Below are positions 56,139-64,000 of a stretch of 64,000 bases of DNA, piece by piece. Each line of letters opens with the position of its first letter. The first letter of the stretch is position 1. The DNA is taken from assembly GCA_947168885.1 (NCBI GenBank), contig CAMVNQ010000004.1:1-64000 (forward strand). Reading direction: 5' to 3'. This stretch comes from an uncultured Clostridia bacterium. GTDB taxonomy: Bacteria; Bacillota; Clostridia; Oscillospirales; Ruminococcaceae. The position numbers were made by a program, and so were the translations under genes. The notes under the pieces are model-generated. The model made no database searches and was not told the DNA's origin. It saw only the letters and a program-made list of their open reading frames with translations.

Positions 56139-57326
56139 TTACTTTATTATCAGCGCAAGGTGCGCAGGAGTCGTGAGACCGATTGCCTTCATTTTATTTA
56201 CTACCTTACCCGCCGTATATTTATCATGTGACATACGACGGTTCAGGTGTGCTACAGCTTTGATGAAATCCTGCTCAATGTTTTCGCCTGCAAAGCCTAT
56301 TGCACTCGCAAAAACCTGTATAGCGGCAACACACGCCGTATAGTAGGCGAACATCTCAAAGAACGTGCCTTGCGTAAGGTTCAGATGATAGAACACATCA
56401 AGGAACATATTCTCCGCAATGTTACGCATTGCCCACTCGCGTCCTTCAAAAGCCTTGTCAAACTCCTTTTTGCCGCGCTCGTAATTTTCGGGGATAACGC
56501 GTTCACCGTCATGAAGCACGGAAATGCTGATTCCGGCTTCATCGGCACCGAAATAGCTTACCATAAGATTATTTACAATAACGAATTTAAGTTTAAGGTT
56601 CGGCTCTATCCCTTCTGCCGCACGCGCAGCGGAGCTTTGCGCCGCTTGTTTCCTGAATATCTGAATTAAATTATCTATTTCATTTATATTGTTGTTTTCC
56701 GCTGCGTCCGATATTTTCTTCGCAGCCATAGCCGCAAGTATCATCGACGCTTCGAGACTTCTGTTACCATGTAATATTTCAAGAAAAAAATCTGTTATCT
56801 GCAACCGTTTTTTCAGAAACGGCGATGATTCAACACGATCTTTCGTTTCGAACTTAACGAGGGTTTCACCGAGTTTTTCCTCTATGTTTCTTGTCATAAC
56901 AGATTCCGGTACGACCGCATTTTTATCATTGATAATTATACCGAGTACATGGGGACAGGAACTGCTTATTGAACGAAAAACGCATCCATCTTTAAGGAAG
57001 AAGGTTCTCGGATAACTTGTACATGTATTGCCAAGATACTCCTCGCCCAGTTCTTTTTGAATATCGCACAAACCGGTCTCGTTGTTATGAAAAGGACAAC
57101 GTCCGTATCTGTTCATTTTTATGAGCCAGCTTTTGCGATCCTCTTTATATTCAAAAAATTTTTCTACTTTTTTTCGGAGGTCGTTTGACATATCAGCCTT
57201 TTTTAGCTTTTCCACTTCTTTATCGTACCAATCGACATTCCAGCCGTCACAGCACGAAACAGGACAATCCCCGCCGATGCAGTGAAAGGAAGAATAATAT
57301 CGCGGCTGTCTGTAATAATAGTCCAT
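56139..57326 (-). CDS. fliB: flagellin lysine-N-methylase
   Basis: The 395-residue protein begins with CIGGDCPVSCCDGWNVDW and continues with CPFHNNETGLCDIQ and NTCTSYPR, the Cys cluster (likely an iron-sulfur centre) of the FliB family. FliB methylates surface Lys residues of flagellin. AGGGGGT precedes the ATG. It is directly downstream of the flagellin gene on minus, separated by a terminator hairpin, so its level may depend on read-through. Confidence 0.9.
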   Translation of the reverse strand: MDYYYRQPRYYSSFHCIGGDCPVSCCDGWNVDWYDKEVEKLKKADMSNDLRKKVEKFFEYKEDRKSWLIKMNRYGRCPFHNNETGLCDIQKELGEEYLGNTCTSYPRTFFLKDGCVFRSISSSCPHVLGIIINDKNAVVPESVMTRNIEEKLGETLVKFETKDRVESSPFLKKRLQITDFFLEILHGNRSLEASMILAAMAAKKISDAAENNNINEIDNLIQIFRKQAAQSSAARAAEGIEPNLKLKFVIVNNLMVSYFGADEAGISISVLHDGERVIPENYERGKKEFDKAFEGREWAMRNIAENMFLDVFYHLNLTQGTFFEMFAYYTACVAAIQVFASAIGFAGENIEQDFIKAVAHLNRRMSHDKYTAGKVVNKMKAIGLTTPAHLALIIK

Positions 57327-57471: not shown

Positions 57472-60105
57472 TTAACCGAGTAACTGGAGAACGCCCTGCG
57501 GCTGCTGGTTAGCCTGTGCAAGCATAGACTGAGAAGCCTGCTGGAGAATGTTGGACTTCGTGTACTTGATCATTTCTGCCGCCATATCGGTGTCTCTGAT
57601 CTGCGACTCGGAAGCCGTCATGTTCTCATTAGCTGTGTTCAGCGAGTTAACTGTGTGTTCAAGTCTGTTCTGAACCGCACCAAGCTTAGCTCTCTGTGTG
57701 GAAACAGCCTTGATAGCGTCATCTATCTTGTTGATAGCATCGTTCGCGTCGTCCTGCTTAGCAACGGAAATATCCTTGATGCCAAGTGCGCTGGAGCTCA
57801 TATCGTCAACGTTTACTGTGAGTCTCTGATCCTCAACACCGTTAGCGCCGATCTGGAATGTGAGTCCTTCGCCGCCTGTAGCAGTCTCTTCCTTACCAAC
57901 GCCGAAGCCCTTAGCCATTCTTGTAGCTGTTGCGTTTGCTTCGGAAACAGCTATGTCAAGCTTCATCTTAACATCACCGTCCGGCTTGTTGCTGTCGGAG
58001 ATGTTAACGCTGTAGTCGAGACCAGCCTTCTTCATGATCTTCTCGATGTCTTCGTTGCTGTACTCAACGCCTGTTGCAAGGTGAATTGTGTACTTTCCGT
58101 CCTTGTTGCCGGGTGTGTCATCGATAGAAGCTTCTACGCTTTCCTGACCTGCCTTGACGTCGGTAGCGATCTCGAATGTACGATCGTCAACGCCGTAGCT
58201 GTTCGATGTGAACTGGATCTGGTCGCCGTAGCCTGTTGTAGGAGCTGTTAGAACGCCTGCGTTTACCTTGCCTCTGGAATTAACGATAGCGTTAGCTTCA
58301 TTCCAGTGGAGAACCTTGTCTCTGGCGGTAGCATCAGTGCTAGTGCTGTTAAGCTCAGCATCTGTGGGCTTGTTTGTAAGTGCACCGTCAACAGCCCATG
58401 TCTTAGCCTCTTTAAAGATACCTGTTATCGTTGAAGCGGGATCCTGCTTATCGGTCTTATTATTATAATAAGTATCCTTATTAGAGGTCTGAGTTGCATA
58501 ACCAGTATTTGCTGTCCAAGTAGAAGCTGTTCCGTCACCTACGACCGCTCCCGCCCACTTAAGAGCCGCAGCAGTTTCAGCATCGGATACAGCGCTAGTG
58601 CCGCCTGTACCCAACTTAGTGAGATTGGTATTTAAAGTCTTAAGATCCTCATCACTAAGGTTCATTATAGCGTCGCCGATATTCTTTCCGTCAGCTTTCT
58701 GCATCTCGTCCCAGCTGTTGTAGCCAAGGAGTTCAGCAGTCTCGGAAGCTATCTGCTTAATTTTGTCTGTATCAGTTGTTGTAGCGCCCTTGAGTTTGCT
58801 GGAGCTGATATTTGTCAGAACATTACCAACCTTTGATGCGAGTTCATAAGCTTTATTGAAGTTTGGAGAAGTGTTTGCAAGAAGCGATATGGTCTTGCTC
58901 TCAGCTCTTTCGCCTGCAGAGGTCTTTGCAGTATAATCGCCGTTATTTGCGGAGTAAACGCCGTCCTTGAGCTTAAGGCTTATCTCTGCAACAACGCCGT
59001 CTGCCTTCTTGGTATCTGCTCCGGCGATGAGCTTGTCGATCTCGTCCTGTGTATAGGTCTTGCCTTCAACGAGATTGAGAGTAAGGGTCTTGCCCGCTTC
59101 GTCCCAAGCTGCACCTTCGCCGCCCTTTGTAGCTCCTGTTGTAACATTGATGCTTGCGCCCTGAACGTTGGAGGTAACTACCGAGCCACCGAAGCCTGCG
59201 GAAGCGTTGCCCATCTTATCAAGCATGTCAGCTATCTTCTCATAGTCGCCCTTTTCACCTGTTGCAGGATCGTAGGCAACTTTTTCACTGAATAAAGCGC
59301 TTCCATCAGCCTTCTTGATAGAAGTAAGTTCTCTGAACTGGTCGCCGCTGAGCTTAGATACTGCTTCAAGAACAGCAGCGTCTGTATCAGCCTTGTTTAC
59401 AGTACCGTCTTCGGCGTAAACCTGCTCAATACCGTATTTATCCTTTAAGGTTTTAAGAATAGCTGCATCTTCAGTGTTATCCTTGCTCAATGTAACTATA
59501 GCCTTGGACATAGTCTTATCAGTGTTTCCTGTGCCGTCAGCTATCGAACCCTTAACAGCAGTGTCTGTACCGGTTGAGCCGCCCTTCGCGATAAATGCAT
59601 CCTGCTCATCCTTGGTTATACCATCGTTAATAACGCCGTACTTTGCACCGTACTCTGTGTTGGAAGCGCCAACACCGGAGAGGGAACCGTCAAGGAGCTT
59701 CATCTCGTTGTACTCTGTGGACTGAGCGATTCTGTCAACTTCAGCCTTGAGAGCTTCAACTTCGTACTGGATCTGCTCACGGTCTTCGTCTGTGTAAGTA
59801 CCGTTAGCGGACTGAACTGCGAGCTCACGCATTCTCTGCATGATATCTTCAGTTTCCTGAAGGCCGCCTTCTGCCGTCTGGATAAGCGAGATAGCGTCGT
59901 TAGCGTTCGAGGAAGCCTGTGTAAGACCACGGATCTGGGATCTCATCTTTTCGGAGATCGCGAGACCTGCTGCGTTATCCGCTGCACGGTTGATGTTGTA
60001 ACCTGTGGAGAGCTTTTCGGTCTGCTTCTTGAGGCCTGCTACGTTCTTACGCATAGCCTCGTTTGCGTTCATTGCGCTAATGTTGTGCTGTACTACCATT
60101 CCCAT
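57472..60105 (-). CDS. flagellin, unusually long
   Basis: The 877-residue protein starts MGMVVQHNISAMNANE, with AAGGAGG seven nt before the ATG; longer starts lack a site. Conserved D0/D1 parts are N-terminal (1 to about 160, with IQRMRELAVQ-type TLR5 region as MQRMRELAVQ) and C-terminal (about 780-877, ending PQGVLQLLG). The central ~620 residues are Asn/Thr/Lys/Asp-rich and variable, with recurring KDG and EEIDKLI-like motifs (YTQDEIDKLI and YSNEDIEKIM), suggesting an internal duplication of the D2/D3 module. Typical flagellins have 270-500 residues. It would form the filament and present a thick outer shell, and is the probable FliB substrate. Confidence 0.93.
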   Translation of the reverse strand: MGMVVQHNISAMNANEAMRKNVAGLKKQTEKLSTGYNINRAADNAAGLAISEKMRSQIRGLTQASSNANDAISLIQTAEGGLQETEDIMQRMRELAVQSANGTYTDEDREQIQYEVEALKAEVDRIAQSTEYNEMKLLDGSLSGVGASNTEYGAKYGVINDGITKDEQDAFIAKGGSTGTDTAVKGSIADGTGNTDKTMSKAIVTLSKDNTEDAAILKTLKDKYGIEQVYAEDGTVNKADTDAAVLEAVSKLSGDQFRELTSIKKADGSALFSEKVAYDPATGEKGDYEKIADMLDKMGNASAGFGGSVVTSNVQGASINVTTGATKGGEGAAWDEAGKTLTLNLVEGKTYTQDEIDKLIAGADTKKADGVVAEISLKLKDGVYSANNGDYTAKTSAGERAESKTISLLANTSPNFNKAYELASKVGNVLTNISSSKLKGATTTDTDKIKQIASETAELLGYNSWDEMQKADGKNIGDAIMNLSDEDLKTLNTNLTKLGTGGTSAVSDAETAAALKWAGAVVGDGTASTWTANTGYATQTSNKDTYYNNKTDKQDPASTITGIFKEAKTWAVDGALTNKPTDAELNSTSTDATARDKVLHWNEANAIVNSRGKVNAGVLTAPTTGYGDQIQFTSNSYGVDDRTFEIATDVKAGQESVEASIDDTPGNKDGKYTIHLATGVEYSNEDIEKIMKKAGLDYSVNISDSNKPDGDVKMKLDIAVSEANATATRMAKGFGVGKEETATGGEGLTFQIGANGVEDQRLTVNVDDMSSSALGIKDISVAKQDDANDAINKIDDAIKAVSTQRAKLGAVQNRLEHTVNSLNTANENMTASESQIRDTDMAAEMIKYTKSNILQQASQSMLAQANQQPQGVLQLLG

Positions 60106-60195
60106 AATTGTTCCTCCTTGATTTTCCGAACAAATCTCTTGGGTGAGAAGTGCTCTACTCAACATAATTCCTTTACGTTGAGTCCATTGTGGTTT

Positions 60196-60476
60196 TTCGT
60201 ACTCTTTTAGTACGTTAGAGGAAAAAACAATGGAATAATTATGCAATGTGCACAATGAATAGCTCCTGCGCTTGTAGGAGTTTTACAATATTATGTAAAT
60301 TTGCAAAAAGGGGCTAAAGTTTTTCGGATTTCTGCCGATAAAATTTATGTAAGCGGCAAACAAAGGTGTACATTTACCGGAGCCTTTGTGAAGCGGGTGT
60401 AGCTGACCCGTGAGCCACAGACACCAAAACACAAATCACAGATCATTATTAAACATTCGTACTATTAGATTACGTT
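60196..60476. other. candidate invertible or excisable promoter segment
   Basis: Two 21-bp sites, 60196-60216 and 60456-60476, both begin TTCGTACT and end TACGTT. Each is an imperfect inverted repeat with a short spacer, as expected for tyrosine-recombinase core sites. Aligned directly they match at 17 of 21 positions; aligned as inverted copies, at 14 of 21. They bracket the SigD promoter and lie between flagellin and a tyrosine recombinase. Confidence 0.4.
60315..60341 (+). promoter_or_regulatory. SigD (sigma-28) promoter pointing away from flagellin
   Basis: TAAA (60315-60318), 15 bp, GCCGATAA (60334-60341) match the flagellar sigma-factor consensus TAAA-N15-GCCGATAT at all but the last base. 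It reads plus, while flagellin is on minus. On minus, the best candidate I find before flagellin is weak (five of eight positions in the -10 box). Confidence 0.8.
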
Positions 60477-60506
60477 TCGCACAGCCAAACGGGTTGTGTT
60501 TTTTTT
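60349..60506 (+). ncRNA. possible SigD-driven small RNA
   Basis: Transcription from the SigD promoter would start near 60349 and meet the terminator at 60480-60506, giving about 158 nt. It contains an AAAGG/CCTTT hairpin near 60365-60390 and CGGGT/ACCCG near 60395-60412. I see no ORF with a ribosome site. It could be a flagellar regulatory RNA or only the waste product of a promoter in the off position. Confidence 0.4.
60480..60506 (+). terminator. plus-strand terminator facing the SigD promoter
   Basis: CACAGCC / GGTTGTG (one G-T pair), loop AAACG, then eight T. It sits just outside the right 21-bp site. Confidence 0.85.
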
Positions 60507-60526
60507 ACGTCCAATTCCCACACAAC

Positions 60527-61678
60527 TTACGGACAATTTCTCACAAGCTTGCTCATTTCGGAGATAAGCGCACCGCGGTCAACATGAACATAATAATCGG
60601 CAGTAGTGCGGAAACTCACGTGACCTATGATCCTTTGCAGTCGTTCGGGCTGCATTCCCGCGGCTACGGACAATGACGCGAAGGTGTGACGGGTGCAGTG
60701 AGGAGTCAGGTGATTTTCGCTATGAAATATGACTGTGCCTTTATGATCAATTTCCGCATCGAGCATTCCGAGCTTTATAAGCGTCTCGTAGAACACTTTA
60801 GTGCGGAACGTATGCTCGGTCATGTTGAAAAGCCGTCCGTTCAGTGGTGCGTTTCTCACCCATTCCGCAACAAATTGCTGTATTTCGGGGATATTGGCAG
60901 GGAATGGGACTGTTCTGTTCCTGCCTGCGACTGTCTTGATGCCTCCAGTGATATATCCGCCGACTAGATCAACACTTTCCGTTTTAAGCGTGGTCATCTC
61001 TCCGATACGAAAACCCATATATATCATTACGAGGATAGCCTGTACGTTTCGGTCGTGTGTGTGTCGCCAAAGTATCGCTGTTTGTTCTGCCGTGAAGGTT
61101 TGTTTCTCAACTTTCTCTGTTTTAGGCAGTTGTACGAATTCAGCGTAGTTTTTATCGAGCAGGTCGTTTTCAATTGCAAAACGACAGAGCGCTTTCGCAA
61201 GAGTTCTAATCCCGCATGCTACACCGGTGCCGCCGTGCTCGTTGACAAGGTGTTGAAAATGTGCTATGCGGACTTCCGTCATCCGCATACTGGCTATCGG
61301 TGAGAAGTGCTTCCACAATGAACGGTAGCAGTCGGCGGTCTTTTTGCTGACTTGTCGGAAGTGCGCCGCCGACCACATTGAATAAATATCCCCGACCGTT
61401 GCGCTGAACAAGTCGGGGCGACCTTTATTCAGATAGTCAGTGAGTGCTTTCTCGGCACTTTCATGCGTCGGATATGATCCGAGGTATTTTCGCACTCCGC
61501 CATACGGCGACACCGGAGCCCGGACGATATATCGATTCTTATTCCTCAGATCTATACTAATGGTACCGGTGCCGTGATCTCGCTTGAAACGGATTGCGTC
61601 ACCGGACTGCTTTATACCGCAGAAGCAGCAGAATAATGCTTTATCTGTGATAGTATTCTGACATTTCGGACATAACAT
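60527..61678 (-). CDS. tyrosine recombinase/integrase with N-terminal zinc ribbon
   Basis: The 383-residue protein starts with a zinc ribbon (CPKCQNTI, then CCFCGIKQ). An AP2-like arm-binding region and a core-binding domain follow. The catalytic domain has all the residues: Arg in YMGFRIGEM, His and Arg in TPHCTRHTF, His in RIIGHVS, and Tyr in ADYYVH. I placed the start at ATG 61678, nine nt after AGGAG; two upstream in-frame ATGs (61687, 61759) are possible. It may mobilise the island that begins at the tRNA scar, or act on the sites beside flagellin. Confidence 0.92.
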   Translation of the reverse strand: MLCPKCQNTITDKALFCCFCGIKQSGDAIRFKRDHGTGTISIDLRNKNRYIVRAPVSPYGGVRKYLGSYPTHESAEKALTDYLNKGRPDLFSATVGDIYSMWSAAHFRQVSKKTADCYRSLWKHFSPIASMRMTEVRIAHFQHLVNEHGGTGVACGIRTLAKALCRFAIENDLLDKNYAEFVQLPKTEKVEKQTFTAEQTAILWRHTHDRNVQAILVMIYMGFRIGEMTTLKTESVDLVGGYITGGIKTVAGRNRTVPFPANIPEIQQFVAEWVRNAPLNGRLFNMTEHTFRTKVFYETLIKLGMLDAEIDHKGTVIFHSENHLTPHCTRHTFASLSVAAGMQPERLQRIIGHVSFRTTADYYVHVDRGALISEMSKLVRNCP

Positions 61679-61841
61679 AGTTGACATCTCCTGTTCGTTA
61701 TATATTGCGCGGCCACATATTAGACAACATACGAACAGTTTGTGATTATTTAATGCCATTTATTATAGTAGGGTTGAAATACATACTACATTATGATATA
61801 ATACCAATCATTACCATTCCTTAACAACTAAATATTCTGTC

Positions 61842-61876
61842 ATATACTGTTCGTTTGGTGTCACTAAACAGTATAT
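61842..61876. promoter_or_regulatory. inverted repeat between integrase and RHH gene
   Basis: A perfect 10-bp inverted repeat, ATATACTGTT / AACAGTATAT, with a 15-bp spacer. CTGTTCGTT occurs here, again at 61692, and inverted near 61731 within the integrase 5' region. It could be an operator or an arm-type binding site. A TTGACT -35-like box near 61939 may serve the RHH gene. Nothing else is evident in 61679-62007. Confidence 0.55.
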
Positions 61877-62007
61877 CATATACGCATTGTGGTGTCAAAT
61901 GCTGTCTAAGAGGATTGTTTTTAATCTATTTGAAATTTATTGACTGCATACAAATAAGTTGTATTGTGGTATCATATTGACAGAATATAGTTCAAGGAGA
62001 TGTAATA

Positions 62008-62199
62008 ATGGCAATATTAAAATCGCAATTCACATTAAGACTTAATCTTTCCGATCACGCTAAAATAAAAAAGATAGCAGAGGAAGAAAACCGATCTATC
62101 ACAAACATGATAGAAACGCTTGTCAAAAAAGAGATAAAGCGATACGAAGACGAGAACGGTGAGATCGAACTTACAGATGAAGATTTATCATCGCTGTAA
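62008..62199 (+). CDS. Arc-type ribbon-helix-helix protein
   Basis: The 63-residue protein has the Arc/MetJ layout: a short strand FTLRLNL, helix A (SDHAKIKKIAEEE), the turn NRSITN, and helix B (MIETLVKKEIKRYE). It is probably a DNA-binding dimer, a regulator or antitoxin-like protein. No toxin gene is adjacent. AAGGAG precedes the ATG. Confidence 0.85.
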   Translation: MAILKSQFTLRLNLSDHAKIKKIAEEENRSITNMIETLVKKEIKRYEDENGEIELTDEDLSSL

Positions 62200-63639: not shown

Positions 63640-63940
63640 ATTCCGAAACCCGGCGTTCAGATGTCTGGCAGACTGCCACCCTGCCAACGATCTGAACAGA
63701 ACCTTGCCACAGAAATATGGGCGGGGTATCACGACAACCGCAGGCTACCGCCTGCAAAAAAGCGGAGGGTACAAAAAATATGTCGAAAAAAGTGGTGCAT
63801 TTTCTTAATATTTCTCATCATAGCAAGCAGGCAAAGAAGTGCATTCCCGGGACAGGGGTCCCGGTTTTTGCACTTGCTTTGCCGATGCGTGAGGCTCCGC
63901 CTGCGCGCTTTTCGATAAGGGAACCCTTCGCCCTTATCGT
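63640..63940 (+). promoter_or_regulatory. hairpin-rich leader with internal terminator before a gene beyond the window
   Basis: Hairpins: GTTCAGAT/ATCTGAAC (about 63655-63698), CCGGGAC/GTCCCGG followed by five T (63847-63869, terminator-like), and CGATAAGGG/CCCTTATCG (63913-63939). A strong GGGAGGAG at about 63985-63993 lies 6-7 nt from the window edge, so a start codon is expected just past 64000. Attenuation is possible. A frame from ATG 63780 stays open to the edge but contains the terminator and looks non-coding. Confidence 0.45.
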
Positions 63941-64000
63941 TATGATACGAGAAAATCAGACTGCATCGGAAACAATGAAAAAAACCGGGAGGAGAAAAAA

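Follow-up and report, generated by a model that had tools for sequence, protein, structure and literature searches.

The flg switch of Clostridioides difficile (Cdi4) is a 154-bp segment between 21-bp imperfect inverted repeats, located in the 5' untranslated region of the early flgB operon; it carries no promoter and acts on the operon after initiation (PMC5386303). In Salmonella, inversion of the H segment by Hin controls a flagellin gene, and in fimS (with FimB and FimE) and other invertons a promoter in a short invertible segment turns a surface structure on or off (PMC8987985 and PMC5386303, respectively). Here we describe a locus in a 64,000-nucleotide (nt) stretch from an uncultured Clostridia bacterium of the family Ruminococcaceae (GCA_947168885.1, contig CAMVNQ010000004.1, positions 1 to 64,000; the whole stretch is hereafter called the window), in which a SigD (sigma-28) promoter lies ahead of a flagellin gene, points away from it, and neighbors the gene of a tyrosine recombinase. 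We consider it very probable that this locus is a phase-variable promoter switch for the one flagellin gene, most likely inverted by the adjacent recombinase.

The parallel with C. difficile flg that an earlier note on this DNA had drawn holds for recombinase-linked flagellar inversion but does not extend to the invertible segment, since that of flg is promoterless, whereas here the SigD promoter itself would invert and the target would be a structural flagellin gene. Both systems, each from a clostridial gut bacterium, combine a tyrosine recombinase, which in C. difficile is RecV, with a short segment that lies ahead of flagellar genes between imperfect inverted repeats of 21 bp (PMC5386303). 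There, one recombinase serves more than one switch (PMC5386303), whereas here the recombinase gene is adjacent; another difference is the presence of a second flagellin in the window's genome. As in Salmonella, DNA inversion would control a flagellin gene, but Hin is described as a serine recombinase (PMC8987985), and the window's enzyme, a Phage_integrase member with R-H-R-H-Y residues, is not of the Hin type. Relative to fimS, the target and the sites are different, and the recombinase here falls in a clade of integrases with a zinc-ribbon-like stretch at the N-terminus. Hin is encoded inside its segment and alternates two flagellins through a repressor; here the recombinase gene lies outside the segment, and neither the segment nor the DNA beside the flagellin gene showed a repressor gene.

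In one open-access library, screened by titles and the starts of abstracts, we found no flagellin promoter switch in Ruminococcus-like bacteria, and a 2019 Science paper on invertible promoters may contain related loci. If our reading is correct, rumen Ruminiclostridium-like bacteria would possess a flagellin-promoter inversion switch, the classical promoter flip that is absent from the C. difficile flagellar switch. In the gut, flagellin is a potent immune signal; to our knowledge, filament variation in commensals has been little studied.

Promoter orientation and trial inversions

The SigD site is the single exact consensus match in the whole window (0.15 expected; 15 of 100 shuffles contain one), and its coordinates (Table 1) and direction agree with the earlier note, which had placed it ahead of the flagellin gene and pointing the other way. 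The leader is divided between the two sides of a site, its 3' half remaining with the gene and its 5' half accompanying the promoter. Within the latter, 29 bases (60421-60449) are identical to the flagellin leaders G000:C1 and G002:C84, with the orientation relative to the gene reversed (G000 is the window's own genome, G002 the metagenome-assembled genome (MAG) RGIG9238, and G055 the MAG RGIG8838). The predicted promoter lies within the segment and would read the flagellin gene in only one of its two orientations.

A search with positions 59700-60530 gave matches in 18 of 31 genomes, the window's own among them. Distinct flagellin starts were located in the collected loci with a single start-codon pattern, starts that did not fit it being left out, and each was scanned; 12 genes from 10 genomes were scored that had 430 bp upstream present and no relative of the window recombinase beside them (L005, L006, L007, L008, L010, L014, L016, L021, L022, L024, L038 and L080). 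All 12 carry a gene-facing SigD site, with no more than one mismatch, at -134 to -264; in both complete recombinase-linked loci (the window and L046/L050), an exact SigD site is directed away from the flagellin gene. As a control, such a site on either strand was found in 11 of 400 random 430-bp stretches of window positions 1-57430. L005 additionally carries an away-facing SigD site, which by its position serves a divergent flagellin, and a thirteenth gene (L121), read by eye, agrees with a gene-facing promoter. L004, L087 and L089 were too short for scoring. A divergent flagellin pair with oppositely directed SigD-like promoters in the common intergenic region is present at L026 (G007:C64:3855-5081).

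The window was inverted between all 870 pairs of a coarse grid and aligned to the upstream regions of L021, L024 and L080. The summed alignment score is 291 for the unflipped window, which equals the grid median, vs 494 for the best coarse pair, and reaches 502 in a fine grid confined to the surroundings of the sites. The best breakpoints (60208-60215 and 60454-60464) fall within or at most two bases from the two sites, and a flip at 60206-60466 raises the score for 7 of 7 references, slightly so for L007 (32 to 34). Recovery of these breakpoints without assuming the sites supports the inversion reading.

In the mechanism that we propose, a segment of ~257 bp, comprising the SigD promoter together with the leader's 5' half, would be inverted by site-specific recombination between two cores, with the adjacent recombinase most likely recombining site B, beside its own gene, with site A in inverted orientation. 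In the OFF state, represented by the window, the promoter would fire toward the recombinase gene, and the short transcript would end at a conserved terminator. In the ON state, it would fire into the flagellin gene through a leader of ~220 nt, like those of other flagellins of the genus; the earlier note had given 220-250 nt, and our count falls at the low end of that range.

Inversion would add or remove the 877-amino-acid (aa) flagellin, and probably changes filament composition rather than motility itself, because a second flagellin with a facing promoter is encoded elsewhere in the genome. In this second gene (G000:C1, 542 aa) the leader and promoter face the gene; the N-terminal 161 residues are 91% identical to those of the window flagellin, and the C-terminal 259 aligned residues 66%. 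The window flagellin has a long variable middle, its paralog being much shorter. Each of the three switch-bearing genomes also has a flagellin gene toward which a SigD promoter points (G000:C1, G002:C84 and G055:C162), and no second site was seen at these genes.

Table 1. Features of the probable flagellin switch locus, in window coordinates
Feature	Position	Strand	Basis and remarks
Flagellin structural gene, 877 aa, ATG at 60105	57472-60105	-	Pfam Flagellin_N E=1.6e-43, Flagellin_C E=8.2e-29
Flagellin-side (3') leader half and ribosome-binding site	60106-60197	-	77-82% identity to flagellin leaders G000:C1 and G002:C84
Site A, flagellin side; core 60198-60214	60196-60216	none	Segment outward: CGTAC-TAAAAGA-GTACG
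Putative invertible promoter segment, OFF orientation	60208-60464	none	Limits from best trial inversions; homologous segment both ways in a relative
SigD promoter, TAAA-N15-GCCGATAA	60315-60341	+	Exact consensus, directed away from flagellin
5' flagellin-leader half, carried with the promoter and hence inverted here	60342-60457	+	Leader match (29 bases, see text)
Site B, recombinase side; core 60458-60474	60456-60476	none	Segment outward: CGTAC-TATTAGA-TTACG
Intrinsic terminator	60479-60506	+	Scanned stem 60479-60499 and T-run; fold -11.1 kcal/mol, z -2.86
Tyrosine recombinase, 383 aa	60527-61678	-	Pfam Phage_integrase E=2.6e-14; R224, H327, R330, H353, Y363 present
Sigma-70-type promoter-like site for the recombinase, TTGACA-17-TATACT	61870-61898	-	Consensus match only, 11/12
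Divergent 63-aa small protein	62008-62199	+	Weak, subthreshold Pfam DUF6364 match (26.4 bits; cut-off 27.3)

Recombination sites and junctions in relatives

The 21-bp repeats A and B are 81% identical and bracket the promoter at the positions given in the earlier note. As a pair they are unremarkable alone, because a second pair nearby (61827/61863) equals them in length and identity; the repeat pair by itself was rejected as evidence and relatives were therefore compared, the weight of the A/B pair deriving from its location in those relatives. The same note had called the site orientation ambiguous, which is largely true of the window alone, since cores A and B agree at 14 of 17 positions in inverted alignment and at 13 of 17 in direct alignment; the homologous loci L050 and L048/L089, on the other hand, give the inverted alignment, and the junctions of L048/L089 reveal the exchange point.

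Read from the segment outward, the cores of L050 are TGTAC-TAAAAGA-GTACG (flagellin side) and TGTAC-TATAAGA-TTAGA (recombinase side), and those of L048/L089 are CGTAC-CAAAAGA-GTACG and CGTAC-CATAAGA-TTGAA, respectively. All three loci have AAAAGA on the flagellin side and ATWAGA on the recombinase side, and in L048 the recombinase-side letters are unchanged whichever segment end is attached. From these letters we read a probable architecture of inversely oriented sites with the arms CGTAC and KTACG around a 7-bp spacer. Inverted sites bound the segment, as in invertons, and the grid-recovered breakpoints coincide with them.

Relatives of the recombinase were sought in 71 genomes of the genus and in named genomes. 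Two of the contigs found are L048 (JAGAWN010000255, from MAG Ruminiclostridium sp. RGIG8838, water deer omasum) and L049 (JAGBMA010000090, from RGIG9238, water deer rumen). Both end with the recombinase gene, the terminator, a site and a 235-bp promoter segment, followed by the recombinase end reversed, so that in L048, whose terminal inverted repeat is exactly 119 bp long, both segment ends connect to the recombinase side. A flagellin contig of the same MAG (G055:C280, L089) has exactly 119 bp in common with the segment's leader end, up to CATTCGTACCA. After CATTCGTACCA, at the spacer, L089 continues into the flagellin-side half site and L048 into the recombinase-side half site, and three of the four possible junctions are seen at this locus.

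In G002, other contig ends overlap by 140 and 141 bases, which identifies exact overlaps of this type as assembler k-mer lengths; the values 119 and 141 correspond to default MEGAHIT steps. The simplest reading of L048/L089 would be an assembly-graph fork arising from reads of both orientations. That the orientation of the window or the double junction of L048 is an assembly artefact seems to us barely credible. Assemblers of short reads can pick either orientation at inverted repeats such as these sites, but this choice requires both orientations in the reads; moreover, the 119-bp overlaps stop at the recombination spacer, and a terminal inverted repeat of at least 20 bases is absent from all 15 other true contig ends tested, in six genomes. 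The comparison with sister genomes proposed in the earlier note has yielded both orientations of a homologous segment in contigs of RGIG8838, and the suggestion that the promoter segment inverts gains support from these contigs, from the orientation of orthologs and paralogs, and from the grid breakpoints.

RGIG8838 also contains a complete locus in the orientation of the window and colinear with it (L050, G055:C38), with the order recombinase, terminator, TAATCTTATAGTAC, segment, GTACTAAAAGAGTAC, flagellin. A further switch-type flagellin (L087, G055:C168) is OFF as far as its contig extends; it was discounted as a junction, since the end of its first 119 bases is not at the spacer.

A locus in the ON orientation (L080, G053:C116) has the leader site only and no relative of the window recombinase. 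At G053:C116:9917-10069 its promoter segment is fused to a truncated small open reading frame (ORF), which belongs to a multicopy family (at E<=1, G000 has 16 matches and G055 has 33). We followed up L080 as a candidate empty site but could not date the insertion, and contig ends of G002 at an L080-type small ORF share 141 bases and are uninformative.

The recombinase family and alternative explanations

The earlier note had described the recombinase as complete, and both its length and its catalytic residues (Table 1) are intact; its N-terminus has zinc-ribbon-like CxxC pairs, recognized by eye. The 71 genus genomes, which include the window's, contain five copies at 61% identity or more, four of which adjoin the segment, while the fifth (L051) is cut by a contig end; the contigs of two of these four are identical over the compared part, leaving three distinct loci in which an intact recombinase is linked to the segment. 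In a tree of 16 rows, the window, L048, L050 and L051 form one group (support 100/99). Its neighbors are integrases of Ruminococcus-like MAGs and viral contigs (42-53% identity), and three distant rows have 29-34% identity. No flagellin start was found in the neighboring DNA examined of the relatives L052-L056. Among 394 genomes of the order (a sample without G002 and G055), the recombinase occurs at E<=1e-95 only in the window's genome and, with 44% identity, in G017, whose 8.5-kb recombinase contig showed no flagellin start.

Alternatively, a recombinase from another locus might invert the segment in trans, as RecV does in C. difficile. Recombinases with several switches are known (RecV and Mpi; PMC5386303), and the mobile island next to the locus holds two other integrases; yet four of the five clade copies accompany the segment, and the window's genome contains no further copy of the core at one mismatch. 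We judge this explanation improbable.

Still less probable in our view is that the recombinase is the integrase of a mobile element beside the flagellin gene, with site B being attL-like and an accidental inversion at integration having become frozen. An island with relaxase, integrase, Mob_Pre and type I restriction genes does lie 5' of the recombinase gene, and among the relatives at 42-51% identity are four from contigs of a viral collection. Against this, no third core at up to two mismatches is present in contig bases 1-120000, a search that covers neither more diverged sites nor sites beyond 120 kb, and none exists genome-wide at one mismatch; the sole other core-like match, with three mismatches, is at 56557, left of the switch. 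In addition, the order recombinase-site-segment-site-flagellin recurs where the recombinases share only 62-64% identity, and both orientations occur within one relative.

The closest solved chains are those of an 'Int protein' (6en0, 6emz and 6emy; E 5e-9 to 2e-8, residues 324-378), presumably Tn1549 Int, which likens the enzyme to integrases of the Tn916/Tn1549 type and of phages. Unlike for those, no attR-like core at up to two mismatches was found in 120 kb, and the apparent substrate is two inverted sites 260 bp apart. Direct repeats of period 11-12 behind the integrase gene are above chance in 7 of the 10 family members tested (L048, L052, L053, L054, L055, L056 and L060, where 1 to 7 of 300 random stretches are equally good), and in L052, L053, L054, L056 and L060 repeats of 11-12 bases directly follow the integrase stop codon. 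The repeats in these five are probably arm-type sites of the integrase family.

We tentatively suggest, as a possibility somewhat short of even, that an integrase lineage of phage or integrative and conjugative element type was captured beside flagellin genes and is now a dedicated, repeatedly used promoter invertase generating combinatorial filament types. The site beside the recombinase gene would then recombine with a bare site over the flagellin leader hairpin. G055 has three switch-type flagellins plus one with a fixed promoter; several switch units per genome would give a combinatorial set of filament types, and the locus would exemplify an integrase that has become a gene switch.

A number of observations weigh against a promoter switch operated by the adjacent recombinase. 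The post-stop repeats, unlike in the integrase relatives, are not above chance in the window and L050 (111 of 300 random stretches each) or in L059 (35 of 300). The window's repeat pair behind the recombinase gene was therefore dropped as a candidate for arm-type sites, and our confidence was lowered slightly for the captured integrase and marginally for the switch itself. The sites are imperfect copies of each other, and the recombinase-side outer arm is degenerate in all three loci. The core pattern, at one mismatch in the 71 genus genomes, has 14 matches (in 11 genomes) vs 27 for a backward control and is no commoner than that control, so that the match count carries no meaning; of the 12 matches outside the window's two sites, four are in flagellin leaders (L080, L081, L087 and L089), and the other eight, at loci with neither a flagellin start nor a SigD site, were dropped. 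L048 and L049 come from one host species and one naming scheme, are identical over the 9574 bases compared, and are not independent. The fourth junction at L048/L089, flagellin side to upstream end, was not seen. MAGs pool strains, and the two orientations may be fixed in separate strains rather than switching, although a strain mixture still needs inversion within the lineage. The recombinase might also be a passenger of the neighboring mobile island, with another enzyme acting on the sites. For the window's own strain, inversion is inferred from the relatives.

Finally, two SigD-like sites with two mismatches face the flagellin gene in the OFF state of the window, as would be expected if the plus-strand promoter served a rightward gene or RNA and the flagellin gene used weaker leftward sites. 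We consider this very improbable: the terminator is immediately to the right, as is the 3' terminus of the recombinase gene, the promoter and its leader half match other flagellin leaders in inverted form, and L050, which is OFF like the window, has no flagellin-facing SigD site even at two mismatches. For the last reason, we disbelieve the minus-strand site at 60350-60376, one with two mismatches.

Terminator, leader hairpin and neighboring genes

The strong terminator reported earlier at 60480-60506 corresponds to the scanned stem and T-run listed in Table 1. A terminator facing the OFF promoter occupies the same place in all three loci (window, L050 and L048), with different stem letters and folds of -11.1, -13.8 and -12.9 kcal/mol. 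It would halt the OFF-state SigD transcript before antisense entry into the recombinase gene.

A CAAGAG motif is present in 6 of the 12 leaders without recombinase, in some also nearer the start codon. The stem closing the CAAGAG loop was folded in five (L006, L021, L022, L005 and L024), while L014 folds differently, and site A coincides with the place of this hairpin in those 5 of 12 leaders. The ON leader would retain a hairpin at site A, and, as a suggestion only, site A may have grown out of the leader hairpin. An Rfam search gave one match, under its gathering score, which was taken as chance.

Upstream of the recombinase gene, the divergent 63-aa protein is a possible regulator of the recombinase and a putative member of the switch. 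The interval between the two genes (61682-61883) contains copies of CTGTTCGTT, direct and inverted, plus a 21-nt direct repeat; these are possible operators that could set the recombinase level and hence the switching rate.

The mobile island extends from 63700-64000 on to ~G000:C4:79400 (L033), on the 5' side of the recombinase gene, and encodes a MobA-type relaxase, two integrases, Mob_Pre and a type I restriction R subunit, as well as an AAA/OLD-like pair recognized by translation only. In L034 (1821-8934), the recombinase copy adjoins hsdM and an hsdS-like gene. The copies in L034 and L050 (418-7734) adjoin large YodL/DUF3849 proteins, the latter region also having an ArdC domain and a second integrase.

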